Positions 20,488 through 29,005 of a stretch of DNA of 64,000 nt are shown in pieces. Numbering within the stretch: the first letter of the stretch is position 1; every line of letters begins with the position of its first letter. This DNA comes from Plumapathes pennacea. Taxonomy: Eukaryota > Cnidaria > Anthozoa > Antipatharia > Myriopathidae. The notes below the pieces were generated by a model. The model had not been told where the DNA came from and searched no databases. It saw only the letters and a list, made by a program, of their open reading frames with translations. The stretch covers positions 9,814,184 to 9,878,183 of the forward strand of contig OZ038471.1 in the NCBI GenBank assembly GCA_964036295.1, written 5' to 3'. Position numbers and translations under genes: made by a program.

Positions 20488-21755
20488 ATGTCCAAGATGG
20501 CAAAGCTGTTGCTAATCGTTGTTGTTTTAAGCTTGTTTAGCTCTGTCGTGGCAGTACTACCGCATTATTCTCCCGCACTTCAGAGCGATGGACTTATCAG
20601 AGACGAAACAATCGAAAGGTACTTTTGTCTTGGGTTTAGTGCTGCTGAAATTGTAGCATGTCTTGTAAACGTGCACGGTATACGTATTAGCCTCAGGCAT
20701 TTGAAAAGAAGCCTAAGGCGCCGCGGTTGTAGAAGACGGTCTCAAAGTGACTTAAACGAAGTCTTTCAAAGCCGTTGCGGAAGAGCTCAGAGGAAGTGGA
20801 AGCCATATTGGATATCGGGCAATGCATCAGCGACTGATCGTTGATCACAGACTAGTTACCACCAGAGAAACTGTTCGTCAAGTCGTAGGGATCTTTAACC
20901 CAGAAGGAGTGCAAGTTCGATCAAGACTCAGGCTACGAAGAAGGGTATATAGGGCACAAGGTCCAAACTATTTGTGGCATATTGACGGATATGACAAACT
21001 AAAACCATTTGGATTCTGTGTACATGGTACTATCGATAGCTACAGTCGAAGGATTCTGTGGTTGGTGGTAGCATCATCAAACAACGACCCTCAAATAGTG
21101 GCCAAGTATTACATTGACTACATTAGGCAAATAGGAGGCACGGCACGAATTGTACGCGGAGATGGAACTGAGAATGGGAACATAGCAGCCATTGAGCGTT
21201 TTTTCCGCCGATCTGCAGAAGACGCTTTCGCTGGTGAAAAATGTTTTATGTATGGTAGATCCACATCAAACCAGAGAATCGAAGCATGGTGGGGACTTCT
21301 GCTTAAAGGGTGTGCGGTTTGGTAGATAAACTTCTTAAAGAACTTGAGAGACTCTGGCCTGTACGTTGACGACAATGTTGTGCACACAATGTCTGAAGTT
21401 TTGTTTTATGGATGTAATTCAAAGAGAACTACGTAGAGTTGCCCAGAATTGGAATGTGGATAGAATGCGACCATCTACTAATCCTGGGACTCCACCAGGA
21501 CGGCCTGATATTCTGTATTTTGTTCCCGAGTTAGTCCATACTCATGATTGCATAGCTCCAGTTAATGTGGATGAGATTGATATCGCTAATGAGGCTTGCA
21601 CTGCACAACCCCCTCTAAGGGAGTGTTCTCCTCATTTTAGGGAACTAGCAGGAATGATAATGGAAGATGAGGTGCTAGAAATGCCTGCTACTGCCGAAGA
21701 TGCTGTTCGTATTTACAATGGCCTGATCCAATTAATGGAAGCAATAGATGTGTAA
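20488..21755 (+). pseudogene. Integrase-core (DDE) transposase, frameshifted
   Basis: Pieces in order: a helix-rich N-terminus to RRRGCRRRSQSDLNE (20488 to about 20770), catalytic core (about 20775-21325) and C-terminal part (about 21366-21755, FCFMDVIQRELRRVAQNW...PGRPDILYFVPEL). The core shows YLWHIDGYDKLKPFGF (first Asp), RGDGTEN (second Asp) and NQRIEAWWG (Glu), the D-D-E arrangement of an rve-type integrase fold. An extra A near 20770 shifts the frame, since reading CAA-GCC restores AVAEELRGSGSHIGYRAM. Further shifts occur near 21305-21325 and 21390. The family is common as transposon-derived genes in cnidarians and fish. No terminal inverted repeats were recognised, so the element's limits are unknown. 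Confidence 0.7.
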
Positions 21756-22043
21756 GCAGTAAAGGTAACCGAGTAGTTGGGCTGATCGTTTATTCATCAC
21801 ACACACACACACACACAGGCACTCCAGTCAGTTGGACATTTAAAAGTAAAATATTCAATTTCCCTTTTTAGTATGATCCTATTGCACTGCGGGTGTAAAA
21901 GATGCCAGCCTCAAAGTGGCTTTAATAACTCTAATTCACTCAATATAATGATTGTATGAGCTCAACAAATAACTAACCTTAAATCGTCAATGAGTAGGGC
22001 TTCTTACGAACAGTATATTTACATTATATTTATCACATGTTAA
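21756..22043. repeat. Non-coding stretch with a (CA)n microsatellite
   Basis: CA repeat of ~11 units at 21797-21820. The rest is AT-rich and unassigned, up to the TTAA (22040-22043) that bounds the next element. Confidence 0.6.
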
Positions 22044-24389
22044 GAGTTGATGTCTGTAAAAATCGAAGAAATGTGGCAATCGGCGGCCAAAGTCAAAAAA
22101 TCAAAATCGCTCATACTTTGGTCAGTTGTAGGCATTAGTAAGTAAGAAAACGTGATGTAGTTAGTTTGTCCAGATTTCACCTGCTTTGGGAGAAAATTTG
22201 CAAAACGTAATTCGGTCGATTCTCAAGGGAAACAACGATTTTCGAAGGTCAAGAAAATCACTCTCGTTATCACAAAGAAATGTACCAAGGGCTCTGTACT
22301 GGCTGTTTATTTGTTAAATAGGTCTTTAGCTTTCTTCTGAGAAGATTGTTCAATGAATTCCATTATCTGTGAACTATTGGTAAATTAATAACGGAGGTCA
22401 TATTTCAGTCACATTTCATTGTCATAATTTAATTTCATTGTCATAGTCAATTTCATTGTCATAGTCTAATATGAAGCGGGTTTTCACCATGCGCGGGGAC
22501 TTCAAATACTATGAAATTTTGGTTGTGGTTAGTTTGAATGTTGATCTTTTAAACTATCGACTTTCTTTTCTGGGGTCTGTGAGCGTTTCTTTTAAAAACG
22601 TCAGCAAAATTGCTCGATTTCACGCAAATGGCGTTTCTCTCGCCCACAAGTCGGTTATCGCGTGGATTGAAAAACACAGATATATTTCTTTTAGGTACTT
22701 TTTATCAAAACTGTGACACCTCTGGTAATTCTGTCTTTCGTTGTTGAAAAAAAAAACTGATCTAATATCAGTTTTCTGCATGTAAACAAACGTTAAAAAT
22801 TTGCATATATATCGCGAAAAGCGTCTCACTTTAGCAAGGCGAAACATCGTCCTTTAGAATGATATGTAGGTGAATAAGCGTTCGATTAAGTAGTAATAAA
22901 CCGATACTTTAACTTTTGGATAATTTAGCGGGCACTGCTGTAAATGCCTCCGCCGTTCAATCCACACTTTCGTGACACATTACAAGTTCAGACCGCGGTC
23001 ACGCACGGGACTGTTCACTCCGGCGACAAAGAAACAATCGGAAAAATAGTCGCCACCTTACCCTTACAATAAAATTACGGTCTTCTAGAATGATGGCAAT
23101 TATGAGTAACTGTGATACGTATGACAAATCAGTCATACCAGTGGTGCCTTAGAATATTTCGTAACAGCTCGGGGGCCTCTATTCTTGCCAGATTGATCAT
23201 ATTAAGCTAATTTGAAATTGATAAGCCATTGATAAAGAAACGTTGTTCCTTTACCTTCTGGGTAATTTAGGGGGCACTGCTGTACTAAATACACCCGCCG
23301 TTTTAGAATTCGTGACTCGTTAGATTTGTAGATTGCTGTCACGCACGAGAGTACCGTTTATATTTTATAACGCGAATGACGTTTCTCTCGCCCAAAAATC
23401 GGTTATGCCGTGGATTGAAAAACACAAATGTATTTTTTTTAGGTACTTTCTTTCAATACTGTGACACTTCTGGAAACTCTGTCTTTAGATATTGACAAAA
23501 ACAATGCGATCTAACATAAGTTTTCCGCATGTAAACAAACGCTAAACATTTGCATATTTACAGCGATCAGTAGTCCACTTATTCAAGTAATGCGAAACGT
23601 CGTCCTTCAGAGTGATTTGTTGCTGAACACTTGCGATTCATCGAAGTAATAAACCGAAACTTTACCTTTTGGGTAATTTAGCGAGCACTGCCGTAAATAA
23701 ATACCCTCGCCTTAAAAACTCTGTAAAGAATGCATTACTTAGTTTCCTTGATCGCGGTCACGCACGGGACTGTTTAGTCCATCATATCAGTGTGGCAAAA
23801 AAATTTTTTTCTGAAAAAATAGTCTCCTGCTTACCCTCAAAACAAATTTTAGTCTTGCAGAGTGATGGAGGCTAGTGGTGTGAATTAGACAAATGAGCTA
23901 ATTTCTCAATTTTCTGACGGTCTTTTTCCAAACTATAAATTTCACCCCACAAGATGCAGAGTTCCGTAACAAATTACAAGTTAAAACAGCGACAAAGAGT
24001 TTCAAACCTTTGTACTACCTCTTTCTGTACCATCTTGGAGTCAAAGTAGTGAGCCTTTATGTGCATCCCCTCACCCTCGCACAATCCCTAACACGGCCAA
24101 AAGAAGTTTTGAATGGATTTCTCATTATCAAGTTTTGGCAAATGACGTTCTGACTCCTGGTTAAAGTCACTCATTAAACTTAACATTCTCGAAAAGGAAC
24201 AACTATGGCGTCCTTTTCACGTGCAGAGGGGGTGAGTCTGGGGTAGCATATTAGCATGCAGGTGATAATTAAATAATGTACAAAGTAATGAAATGGGAAA
24301 CGGATATGGAAAAGAGAAGAAACTGAGACAAGTTCCCTGACAAAAATGGTTTGCTAAGTTTGCAAAGTGTTTGCGAAGTGTTTTCCGCA

Positions 24390-24444
24390 AAAAAAAAAAA
24401 AAAAAAAAAAAAAAAGGAGAGAGATAGAGATAAAGAAAGAAGGA

Positions 24445-24480
<36 letters not shown>

Positions 24481-24500
24481 AAAAACAAAGAAGAAAGAAA
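24390..24500. repeat. A-run and (GAAA)n microsatellite
   Basis: About 25 A residues, then GAGA and roughly twelve GAAA units. Confidence 0.9.
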
Positions 24501-24742
24501 ACAGCAATACCAACCGAAATAACCGCGAACCGAGGAAAACGGCGTCAGCGGTCCTCAGTTAAATGAACAGTACTTCCCATGCATGACCTCAATCTAAGAA
24601 ACTAACGAGTCACGTATTCCAATTAACGAAGTGTAGATTGAAAGGCGGGTATATTTACAGCAGTGCCTCCTAAATGCCCCCAAAAAACAAAGGAACAACG
24701 TTAGTTTATCGATGGATTATCAGTTTCAAATTAGCTTGATAT

Positions 24743-25402
24743 TGTTACCGAGCACTTTCGTGTCGTACAGTAGTAATGGGGACTCGCTGGCGAAGGAGTC
24801 TTGAAACGGCTTTCCCTGAGGTGGCACTTTAATCCTTCTCTTCACAGTGTAGCTCGAGAGTTACAAATTTTCGTCCATAGGTCTGAACTCTACAGAGGAG
24901 AGTCCAACAGCTTATCTCTGTCCTTCACATCTCTGCTCTCTTCTCCTATCCTTCTCTCTCTGTCTTCTCTGTCTCTCCTTCTCTGGCTTTCTTTGCTCTC
25001 TCCCTTTCTCTGGTCTCTCTAGTACAACGTAGGCTCTGTTATATGGCCTCGCGCAGAGTGCAACTCATTAATTTTCATATATACATTTCTTAATTCCTAC
25101 GTATAACGGGTCCAGGACAAAGTTGCGTCGATCCACCTGTGGATCTGTTGTTCTGGGATCATTCGAGCTTAACGATCTATGGTGTCACCTGTTCTTATCT
25201 GGTAGTTACGTTGTTATGGCATCAGCTTCAACGATGCTTCGCTCGGGCGCTTCCTTGTGGAATATTGTTAGTTGGCCGAGCTGTCTATTACAGGTGGTTG
25301 TTATGGTTGTTTTGCCAACAAAAGTTTCCAGTTAATAGGATTTCGAGCTATCGTATTTCCGCTCGTGGCTGAACATAAATTTCCTATTTTTGACTCTCAA
25401 CA
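24743..25402. mobile_element. Solo LTR candidate (660 bp)
   Basis: Begins TGTTACCG and ends CTCAACA, so the termini are TGTT...AACA, the usual inverted TG/CA ends of LTRs. It is flanked by ATAT on both sides (24739-24742 and 25403-25406). Removing it with one ATAT restores 'agcttgatatgatcaat', which matches the sister arm's 'agcttaatatgatcaat'. It has a pyrimidine-rich CT tract at 24915-25020. No internal retrotransposon genes are adjacent, so it is a recombined solo LTR. Superfamily not determined. Confidence 0.6.
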
Positions 25403-25898
25403 ATATGATCAATCTGGCAAGAATAGAGACTCAGCTGTTACGAAACATTCCAAAGCACAACTGGTATGACTGATTTGTCATACGTATCGCAGTGTCTCGG
25501 AATAGGCCTTTTGCAACAGTTTGTCACGTGACCGATCACCCCATAGCAACGCCATACTGGATGGCAAGCGGTTTTGAAATTCCTTGACAACCAACAGAGC
25601 GTGACAGCGAGATCGAATACAAAGGTGAGCTTTTGGTCGTTTTGTTCACTTTGATTATTATTAGATCACAAAAGAACACTTAACCAATGACACATAAGCC
25701 AATATCTGTCCGTTGAGTGTAGTTTTGGACTATATAAATCCGTAATTCGGAGTTATGAGCCCGGCGAACGTGTTCGCTCGCGATCGCTCACCGCGGTGAA
25801 CGACGCAGGAGTTGTGATGAAAACCGTTCTAACCCAAACCGCGAAATCTCTAGCATAGCTGTCAATACTGAAATACTCGAATACTCGAAGAGAAAAAA

Positions 25899-26684
25899 AT
25901 GAGCTATCACTGTTGCGTCCCTCGTTGCAATGCCGACAGCCGTTACGACTCCGAGAAAGCACTGTCGTTTCATCGCTTTCCTCCGGAGTCCAAACGAGAA
26001 CTCAGAGCCACCTGGATCAACAATATTCGAAGGGACACTGGACATTTTTTTGAGGTAAATTGTGCCGTTGTTACATTGCGCATTGATTTGCAAAATTTTC
26101 AAGATCCTAATGTTTTCGCCTTGTGTTCACCACAGATCACTAGTAATACGCGAGTTTGCTCGCGGCATTTTAAGCCGACCGACTACAAAGAGCCCGATAA
26201 CAGCGGTCGTAGGCTACTGAAACCAGGAGCGAAGCCAACCATGTTCCAGTGGTCAATGGAACGACCAGCAAGAAGGGTGCTTGTTAGAGCAGAAATGGAG
26301 AGGTGAGTAGTTGTTTGTTTGCTTGTTTTATTATTATCATTATTATCGACAGTGAAGTGCAAGTTCACTCCAAAAAATCTATCCTTTTATTCCACTAGTG
26401 AATGTCAGAATCCCCAAGTTGATAAGGAAAACGAAGACCCAGCTTGGGAACAACTCAGAGAACCCTCAGAGCTAGAGATTGCACAGGCTGAGACAGCTGC
26501 TGCCCATGCAGAGACTGCTGCGGTACAAGCAGCACTTGATGCAAGTCTTGCTCTTTTGGAATCTGCCCATATCGATCTTGAAAGGGCAAGGAACCAGGTC
26601 ACAGTATTGACAGCTATGCTAGAGATTTCGCGGTTTGGGTTAGAACGGTTTTCATCACAACTCCTGCGTCGTTCACCGCGGTGA
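25899..26684 (+). CDS. THAP-domain protein of the Kolobok-like element (3 exons)
   Basis: Exons 25899-26054, 26136-26302 and 26399-26684 (introns gtaaat...cacag and gtgagt...ctag; phases 0 and 2) give ~202 residues. The N-terminal THAP zinc finger is MSYHCCVPRCNADSR...C-SRHF with the C-x4-C...C-x2-H pattern. Removing the 81-nt first intron brings the Cys-Cys spacing to ~49, inside the family's 35-53. The closing motif reads LKPGAKPTMFQW. After it comes an Ala/Glu heptad-like coiled coil (AETAAAHAETAAVQAALDAS). The last ~27 codons (ISRFGLERFSSQLLRRSPR) lie in the right inverted arm. THAP domains bind DNA, so the product is probably an element DNA-binding protein. It has no DDE catalytic region. 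Confidence 0.75.
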
Positions 26685-27983
26685 GCGATCGCGAGCGAAC
26701 ACGTTCGCCGGGCTCATAACTCCGAATTACGGATTTATATAGTCCAAAACTACACTCAACGGACAGATATTGGCTTATGTGTCATTGGTTAAGTGTTCTT
26801 TTGTGATCTAATAATAATCAAAGTGAACAAAACGACCAAAAGCTCACCTTTGTATTCGATCTCGCTGTCACGCTCTGTTGGTTGTCAAGGAATTTCAAAA
26901 CCGCTTGCCATCCAGTATGGCGTTGCTATGGGGTGATCGGTCACGTGACAAACTGTTGCAAAAGGCCTATTGCCATCATTCTAGAAGACCATAGTTTTGT
27001 TTTGAGGGTAAGGTGGCGACTATTTTTCCGATTGTTTCTTTGTCGCCGGAGTGAACAGTCCCGTGCGTGACCGCGGTCTGAACTTGTAATGTGTCACGAA
27101 AGTGTGGATTGAACGGCGGAGGCATTTACAGCAGTGCCCGCTAAATTATCCAAAAGTTAAAGTATCGGTTTATTACTACTTAATCGAACGCTTATTCACC
27201 TACATATCATTCTAAAGGACGATGTTTCGCCTTGCTAAAGTGAGACGCTTTTCGCGATATATATGCAAATTTTTAACGTTTGTTTACATGCAGAAAACTG
27301 ATATTAGATCAGTTTTTTTTTCAACAACGAAAGACAGAGTTACCAGAGGTGTCACAGTTTTGATAGAAAGTACCTAAAAGAAATATATCTGTGTTTTTCA
27401 ATCCACGCGATAACCGACTTGTGGGCGAGAGAAACGTCATTTGCGTGAAATCGAGCAATTTTGCTGACGTTTTTAGAAGAAACGCTCACAGACCCCAGAA
27501 AAGAAAGTCGATAGTTTAAAAGATCAACATTCAAACTAATCACAACCAAAATTTCATAGTATTTGAAGTCCCCGCGCATGGTGAAAACCCGCTTCATATT
27601 AGACATAAATTATGACAATGAAATGTGACTGAAATATGACCTCCGTTATTAATTTACCAATAGTTCACAGATAATGGATTCATTGAACAATCTTCTCAGA
27701 AGAAAGCTAAAGACCTATTTAACAAATAAACAACCAGTACAGAGCCCTTGGTACATTTCTTTGTGATAACGAGAGTGATTTTCTTGACCTTCGAAAATCG
27801 TTGTTTCCCTTGAGAATCGGCCGAATTACGTTTTGCAAATTTTCTCCCAAAGGAAGTGAAATCGGGACAAACTAACTACATCACGTTTTCTTACTTACTA
27901 ATGCCTACAACTGACCAAAGTATGAGCGATTTTGATTTTTTGACTTTGGCCGCTCTTTCTTTGATTTTTACAGACATTTGCTC
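26602..27983. repeat. Right inverted arm of the Kolobok-like element (intact)
   Basis: Uninterrupted copy that serves as the template for reading the insertions in the left arm. Starts with 'cagtattgac' inside exon 3 of the THAP gene and ends at TTAA. Confidence 0.75.
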
Positions 27984-29005
27984 TTAAGACTTCCTCATAT
28001 ATCAAAATGATGGTGAATAAAGACAGCAAATGAAAGCAGTTCGACCTTTTTTTCTAAATTTCACCATTAGTCGAACTTTAACCTGAACAACATTTAATTC
28101 TTTTCAGCAGAACCCAACTGTAACGTAAAGCAATTTGTTGCTTAGTCTTGTATTGGTTCCTTTGCATGGGAACACAGCCAAACTTGAGGACAGAACAATA
28201 GAAATTTTCTGGGATAGAGGGCATCTTCAAACAATGTCAATGTCCCAGTAATCGCTGTCGAAAATGTTGTTCATTTGCTCGCGAAACTGAGGAAATGACT
28301 GGTAGGTGCTGGGGAGTTCGAGAAGTGGCCCATAAGTATGGGCAACAGGGCGTCGGGCAACTCCATCTATGTTAGTAAATGTAACTTCAGTGCGTTCGAC
28401 GCAGATCAACGTGGCGCCTGCGCAGTAGCGCAAAACTTTTGCCATCTTCTCTTCATCCAAGCCTATTACGAAACGCTTGAGGTAAGAGAGGGCGTCACGC
28501 TGTGAATTGCTCACTGGTTCTGCTGTCAAGAGGTTTAACACCCTTTTGACGATGGCTTCACTCTGTTGTACACCACGGTAAGGCTGTCAACAGAGGCAAA
28601 GTTAGGGTGCTGCAGGAGAGCTGCGCATGGTTTTCTCCAACTGTCAATGACATACTGGACCATTTGAATCATTTCCTTGTGAGCAATCTCCAGGATTACG
28701 GCTTCTCTTTCTTCCTCCTTGGGAATGCGTCTGCAACCAAACCTGTCAAGGAAGTTGACCTAATTGTCTTGTTGGTCATCTCTGAAATCACATTTCAGTG
28801 CTGCAGCTATCACTGTTCTCTCATCTTTGGACACATGTGCCAAGAATGATTCCATCAAAACTTCACTTGGGACATCATTCTCGCCAAAAAGTGTGGCATG
28901 CATGAAAACCCTGTTCAGCTTCACAGGGAAGAAATGCACCTATTTGTATCCCTTTGCAAAGATGCTTGCTGTAGCCTCCCATTCTGCAGATTGGAAGTCG
29001 TGGCG

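Follow-up and report, generated by a model that had tools for sequence, protein, structure and literature searches.

The 64,000-nucleotide window analysed here (C10:9814184-9878183, on contig OZ038471.1 of the Plumapathes pennacea assembly GCA_964036295.1) contains, at window positions 22044-27983, a long palindrome with a THAP gene. Palindrome and gene are both real, but joining them into one element is wrong. We compared the window with a genome of 290 Mb in 24 contigs and conclude that the stretch very probably holds two unrelated mobile elements, one nested in the other. The outer element is a Kolobok-like palindrome. The inner element is a nonautonomous derivative of ISL2EU (PHIS superfamily) that suffered an internal deletion and then became double-3'-ended. 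The THAP gene belongs to the inner element: it is a truncated ISL2EU transposase gene, not the outer palindrome's own.

This single genome preserves successive stages on the way from an autonomous two-gene transposon to a short, fully symmetric element: full-length copies, a microhomology deletion, the replacement of one end and the arrival of the symmetric form at a second site. The component parts are of kinds already known. The inner element is an ordinary kind of transposon decay plus one twist, namely two 3' ends, present at two loci, with the end of the gene lying in an arm. A loosely matched text search of the literature (ISL2EU with deletion, palindrome, hairpin or repressor) gave no ISL2EU paper among the matches listed; we do not claim absence from print.

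An insertion within a palindrome arm

To see the outer element without its insertion, we turned to its relatives. We fetched 30 arm loci of the outer family (L018-L047), the window among them. Twenty-eight arms cross the insertion point without the inner element, where crossing means that the arm aligns across the site in one piece. The other two loci are the window itself and L040, which ends before the site. Thirteen crossing arms have an empty site that reads GGAATTGCC, and in the other 15 the site has diverged; the insert is absent from all 28.

Set against this empty site, the filled site of the window shows that the 2 bp AT were duplicated within an A|AT|T target, with the left copy at 25502..25503 and the right copy at 26969..26970. 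The alternative of a TA duplication at an AATATT target was rejected because the empty site AATT gives AT. Between the two copies lies the inner element (25504..26968, + strand; AGGCC...GGCCT, 1,465 bp).

The inner element sits in the outer right arm, because the outer palindrome resumes on both sides of the insertion. The outer left arm (22044..23206, +) pairs with 25405-25503 plus 26969-27983, and the arms are 97.4% identical (1,081 of 1,110 aligned positions). The inner part of the right arm (25405..25503, -) ends in the AAT of the A|AT|T target; the outer part occupies 26971..27983 (-). On the left, the sequence that pairs with 26602-27983 is split by a stretch of 2.4 kb, made up of the outer element's loop, its inner arm and a 660-bp insertion. 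We also considered an insertion in the outer left arm and rejected it, since loop and inner arm of the outer element itself account for the 2.4-kb stretch.

Genome-wide comparison separates the two parts in the same way. The segment 26602-27983, used as a query, has at least 95 matches, and apart from the window none of them reaches query positions 1-366, the inner arm (the best 40 of 193 candidates were scored). This list misses the copies that the inner arm has elsewhere, which a separate search found. Conversely, the flanks of the other copies of the inner loop do not resemble the outer element at a threshold of E 0.001.

The earlier note had proposed a single Kolobok-like element, a palindrome with 1.4-kb arms and its own THAP gene in the loop. 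Its inverted-repeat architecture is there: inverted pairing extends across 22083-27953 apart from the 2.4-kb stretch (22083-23100 against 26969-27953, in pieces), and a TTAA copy lies on either side (22040..22043 and 27984..27987, read in the window's flanks). In addition, a THAP domain is usual in Kolobok transposases as described in PMC6004289. The single 1.4-kb arm, however, dissolves into an inner piece (26602-26968) and an outer piece (26969-27983) on the right, and on the left it is split by the 2.4 kb. The sibling arms cross the site without the insert, the inner copies sit in other flanks with AT duplications, and the gene is part of an element with a THAP-HTH-DDE_4 transposase and YqaJ. 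We therefore regard the single element as almost certainly wrong. Its case also carries a warning for annotation: when an insertion is nested in one arm of a palindrome, the whole can pass for a single giant palindromic element whose loop carries a gene.

Relatives and origin of the inner element

A genome-wide search with the inner loop gave nine matches, which fall into four structural classes. The first class comprises two full-length copies (C11:15629813-15634095 and C1:10426949-10431232) of 4,283 and 4,284 bp as cut; lengths given in this way grow by 4 bp when the AG/CT ends are counted. The second class (L012, L014 and L015; 1,304-1,321 bp) has a 2,964-bp deletion and ordinary ends, with 236 bp matching at the 5' end and 365 bp at the 3' end. 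The third class, the window copy and L010, combines the deletion with symmetric ends (1,461 bp as cut). The fourth class (L016 and L017; about 1.7 kb) has a second type of deletion. Two further loci, L054 and L055, hold the 3' end alone, with the same deletion junction.

The full-length copies identify the family. In both, a 400-aa exon frame continues the THAP gene and the opposite strand carries a frame of 454 or 451 codons. The transposase gene, with THAP, HTH_Tnp_4 and DDE_Tnp_4, converges on a gene with YqaJ (the Pfam search covered the frames of one copy, E1; those of the other, E2, were read only). In E1, Pfam matches HTH_Tnp_4 at 7e-11, DDE_Tnp_4 at 5.6e-44 and, in the minus-strand frame, YqaJ at 1.2e-17. 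ISL2EU elements are described in print by just these traits: they duplicate AT in an A|AT|T target, encode a transposase with DDE, HTH and THAP, and carry YqaJ in a second gene (PMC4482050; PMC9179366). E1 has both genes and the window insertion has the duplication. The window copy itself keeps THAP and a helix and has lost the YqaJ gene. AAT...ATT flanks surround eight of the nine loop copies. The full-length relatives, at about 4.3 kb, compare with an average of about 4.84 kb reported for ISL2EU in the same papers.

Several observations weigh against our reading. L017 is the one loop copy without AAT...ATT flanks. The window copy starts with AGG instead of the usual GG, and the 367-bp arms of the window copy and L010 exceed the 6-259 bp reported for ISL2EU terminal inverted repeats (TIRs); the other seven loop copies have about 236 bp. 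Both the GG start and the TIR range are reported as common traits of ISL2EU and are not strictly defining. With its internal deletion and two 3' ends, the window copy departs further from the elements described in PMC4482050 and PMC9179366. Finally, no intermediate of the end replacement was found and its mechanism was not directly seen, and the mobility of the double-3' form rests on just two loci.

Over the 191 transposase codons compared, the two full-length copies differ from each other in a single one. This near-identity suggests recent activity. The TIR also occurs in pieces: at C2:32.56-32.62 Mb, four loci (L068-L071) repeat its first 113 bp in similar context and lack the AAT flank, as though a larger repeat had taken this piece up.

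Comparing full-length with deleted copies shows what was lost. The 2,964 bp are missing between two copies of TTTCATC, a 7-bp microhomology. The junction is common to five complete copies and to the two 3' fragments, and would most simply reflect one deletion that subsequently spread.

Only the window copy and L010 underwent the second change. In place of the 5' end, as far as the CTCGAAGAG that immediately precedes the start codon, they have 365 bp of the 3' end in inverted orientation and a 13-bp filler (25871..25883, +) that is the same in both and absent from the other seven loop copies. The resulting left inner arm (25504..25870, +) is the reverse complement of the element's 3' end and includes 55 bp antisense to transposase coding sequence. 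In the right inner arm (26602..26968, +) these 55 bp of coding sequence and the 317-bp 3' TIR overlap by the junction microhomology TTTCATC at 26650-26656. Because the left arm also holds the deletion junction, the end replacement came after the deletion. The arms are identical at 365 of 365 positions; inverted pairing joins 25501-25870 to 26602-26971 (370 nt, 100%) across a spacer of 731 bp. This symmetry is far beyond chance.

Since perfect inverted repeats are easily misassembled, a false palindrome produced by the assembly has to be considered. The earlier note had named other copies as the test for a one-off rearrangement or an artefact. L010, at C1:18.39 Mb, has the same double-3' structure in other flanks, with two mismatches between its own arms, and the structure passes this test. 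The AT and TTAA duplications are also clean. We consider an artefact exceedingly improbable.

The window copy and L010 differ at 8 of 1,461 positions, and both lie in AAT...ATT. Their flanks (1,135 bp) have one 12-bp match at E 0.31 and nothing else in common. Since the two share their structure in unrelated flanks, we infer from these two loci that the symmetric form moved after it had formed. If so, two 3' ends may be usable as a transposable pair, and the 5' and 3' ends of this ISL2EU may be interchangeable, as the two loci suggest. This idea can be tested.

The copies give the following course of events. A full-length element with THAP-HTH-DDE and YqaJ genes lost 2,964 bp by the joining of its TTTCATC copies, and in a descendant an inverted copy of the 3' end took the place of the 5' end. 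For this second step we propose that a break in one copy was joined to another copy's 3' end, in inverse orientation and with the short filler between them. The product would be an element with two 3' ends, presumably still movable by transposase from full-length copies. This symmetric form now stands at two unrelated loci, one of them inside the Kolobok-like palindrome.

One site differs within the arms themselves. At inner position 1160 the window copy has T where the ungapped sister copies have C (L014 is gapped here). The change is mirrored at position 302; both arms of L010 keep the ancestral base. This one mirrored site hints at arm-to-arm copying but is too little to claim it.

The truncated THAP gene and its possible effects

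The THAP gene (25899-26684, +; start at 25899, stop at 26682-26684) probably has three exons and encodes a predicted protein of 202 aa. Exon 1 spans 25899..26054, exon 2 26136..26302 and the truncated exon 3, which holds the helix region, 26399..26684; for exon 1, the full-length copy E1 has matching bounds. Removing the intron at 26303-26398 yields a frame of 229 aa with its stop at 26684. Removing in addition the 81-nt stop-free GT-AG stretch 26055-26135 gives a THAP match that covers all 87 profile positions and scores 68.8 bits. With this stretch kept, the score is 60.1 bits and the match is split in two. A two-exon gene was rejected, because the profile is whole only without the 81 nt.

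The protein matches THAP in Pfam (7.3e-19). A one-sequence AlphaFold model predicts a helix of 68 residues in exon 3 (mean pLDDT 86.3). THAP and this long helix are all that the 202 aa contain; the catalytic domain is gone.

The right arm begins at 26602, and about 27 codons and the stop lie inside it. The left arm carries their exact reverse complement at 25788-25870. On both points the earlier note was right. The gene ends in the arm because the duplicated segment runs 48-55 bp past the deletion junction into transposase coding sequence.

With the replaced 5' end, the closest TATAAA upstream lies 166 bp from the ATG instead of 23 bp, and an upstream open reading frame (ORF) of 13 codons (25817..25858, +) is brought in. 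The earlier note had located the promoter in the left arm, and a promoter-like TATATAAA box does lie there (25731..25738, +). It is not confined to that arm: a mirror copy in the right arm (26734, - strand) faces the THAP gene. Downstream, the + strand has no AATAAA or ATTAAA from the stop to 27725, a position in the outer arm. Transcripts therefore probably continue beyond the inner element.

What could such a gene do? The truncated THAP-helix protein could bind element ends and compete with the transposase. In Drosophila, small P elements can encode repressors, for example the 207-aa KP protein (PMC7776569). Like KP and other deleted P elements as described there, the window copy combines an internal deletion with a whole THAP domain, an adjoining helical region (here a prediction from one sequence), a lost catalytic domain and a length of about 200 aa. 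A repressor maintained by selection would inhibit the full-length ISL2EU transposase and would explain the spread of the derivative, and the frame is intact in both double-3'-ended copies. Against this, three of the five complete same-deletion copies (L012, L014 and L015) have premature stops, and L015 has gapped codons as well, which lends no support to a repressor role. The upstream ORF in the new leader and the lack of AATAAA or ATTAAA before 27725 count against it too. Nor do the coding changes point to selection acting on the truncated protein, although no formal dN/dS test was made. ISL2EU also differs from P in superfamily. We consider a selected repressor of the KP kind unlikely.

Alternatively, the RNA could be the active product. 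The earlier note had suggested a long transcript hairpin with a double-stranded coding end. In the predicted fold of the spliced transcript, with an assumed start at 25767, 106 pairs join mirror positions, one or more of these pairs lying beyond the arms, and the leader 25767-25870 (104 nt) pairs with 26602-26705, the coding end and beyond. The length proposed does not hold: a transcript that begins some 30-36 nt downstream of the first base of the TATA box would include just about 104-110 nt of the left arm. A hairpin is possible, but it would be smaller than first proposed.

A silencer of this kind would resemble Mu killer in maize, where both TIRs come from one element end and the inverted transposase part is about 1.3 kb (PMC3440606). 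Hairpin or antisense RNA from the symmetric arms would feed small RNAs against ISL2EU copies. The window element likewise has an internal deletion, derives both its termini from a single element end and carries part of the transposase gene in inverted form; its predicted transcript pairs with itself at about 104 leader positions, and the right-arm box is directed at the gene. Unlike Mu killer as described in that paper, however, it has just 55 bp of transposase coding sequence in its arms, belongs to another superfamily and occurs in two genomic copies, which implies movement. Moreover, the ordinary TIRs of both full-length ISL2EU copies are already about 95% complementary over 240 bp. We regard a silencing function as distinctly improbable; most likely the hairpin is a by-product.

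Both functions might be combined in a mobile double regulator: a double-3' ISL2EU derivative encoding a KP-like THAP repressor, forming its own hairpin as a source of small RNAs against the family and spreading by its two 3' ends. We think this very improbable indeed.

Arms that take up other sequence have been described elsewhere. Some Galileo copies took non-TIR sequence into their TIRs (PMC4168063). The system described in PMC3688188 has, like the window element, long TIRs, which in some copies are extended with non-TIR sequence, and a THAP transposase. It differs in belonging to the P superfamily and in having tandem repeats within its TIRs.

The outer element and its surroundings

The outer element (22044-27983) is a TTAA-flanked, nonautonomous palindrome. 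Judged by target site and termini, it likely belongs to Kolobok. TTAA follows 28 of the 30 fetched outer-family ends, the window's right end included. The termini GAG...CTC conform to the 5'-RR...YY-3' rule given for Kolobok, unlike piggyBac, in PMC9587614. Searched genome-wide with up to three mismatches, the end pattern has 115 matches and the reversed pattern none. In its TTAA duplication, GA start and TC end the element resembles the nonautonomous Kolobok-type elements described in PMC9587614 and PMC6004289. It differs from them in its arms of about 1.1 kb and in that no transposase was recognised for the outer family in the stretches that were fetched from two large copies. These stretches contain 12 frames of at least 90 codons. 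Nine were searched and have no Pfam match at E 0.1; two low-complexity frames and one antisense to a searched frame were left out.

The outer loop (23207..24742, +) is collinear with sibling copies and has no long reading frame listed. It is followed by a third nested insertion, the 660 bp mentioned above (24743..25402; TGTTA...CAACA, with a 4-bp ATAT duplication), which the aligned sibling loci skip and which looks like a solo long terminal repeat. The outer arm and loop also contain a diverged direct duplication, 22622-23021 and 23370-23780, with pieces 76-91% identical at a spacing of about 750 bp, so the outer palindrome is itself internally repeated. Just upstream of the outer element, at 20822-21325, lies a frame of 167 aa that matches the Pfam integrase-core family rva_4 (7.1e-20).

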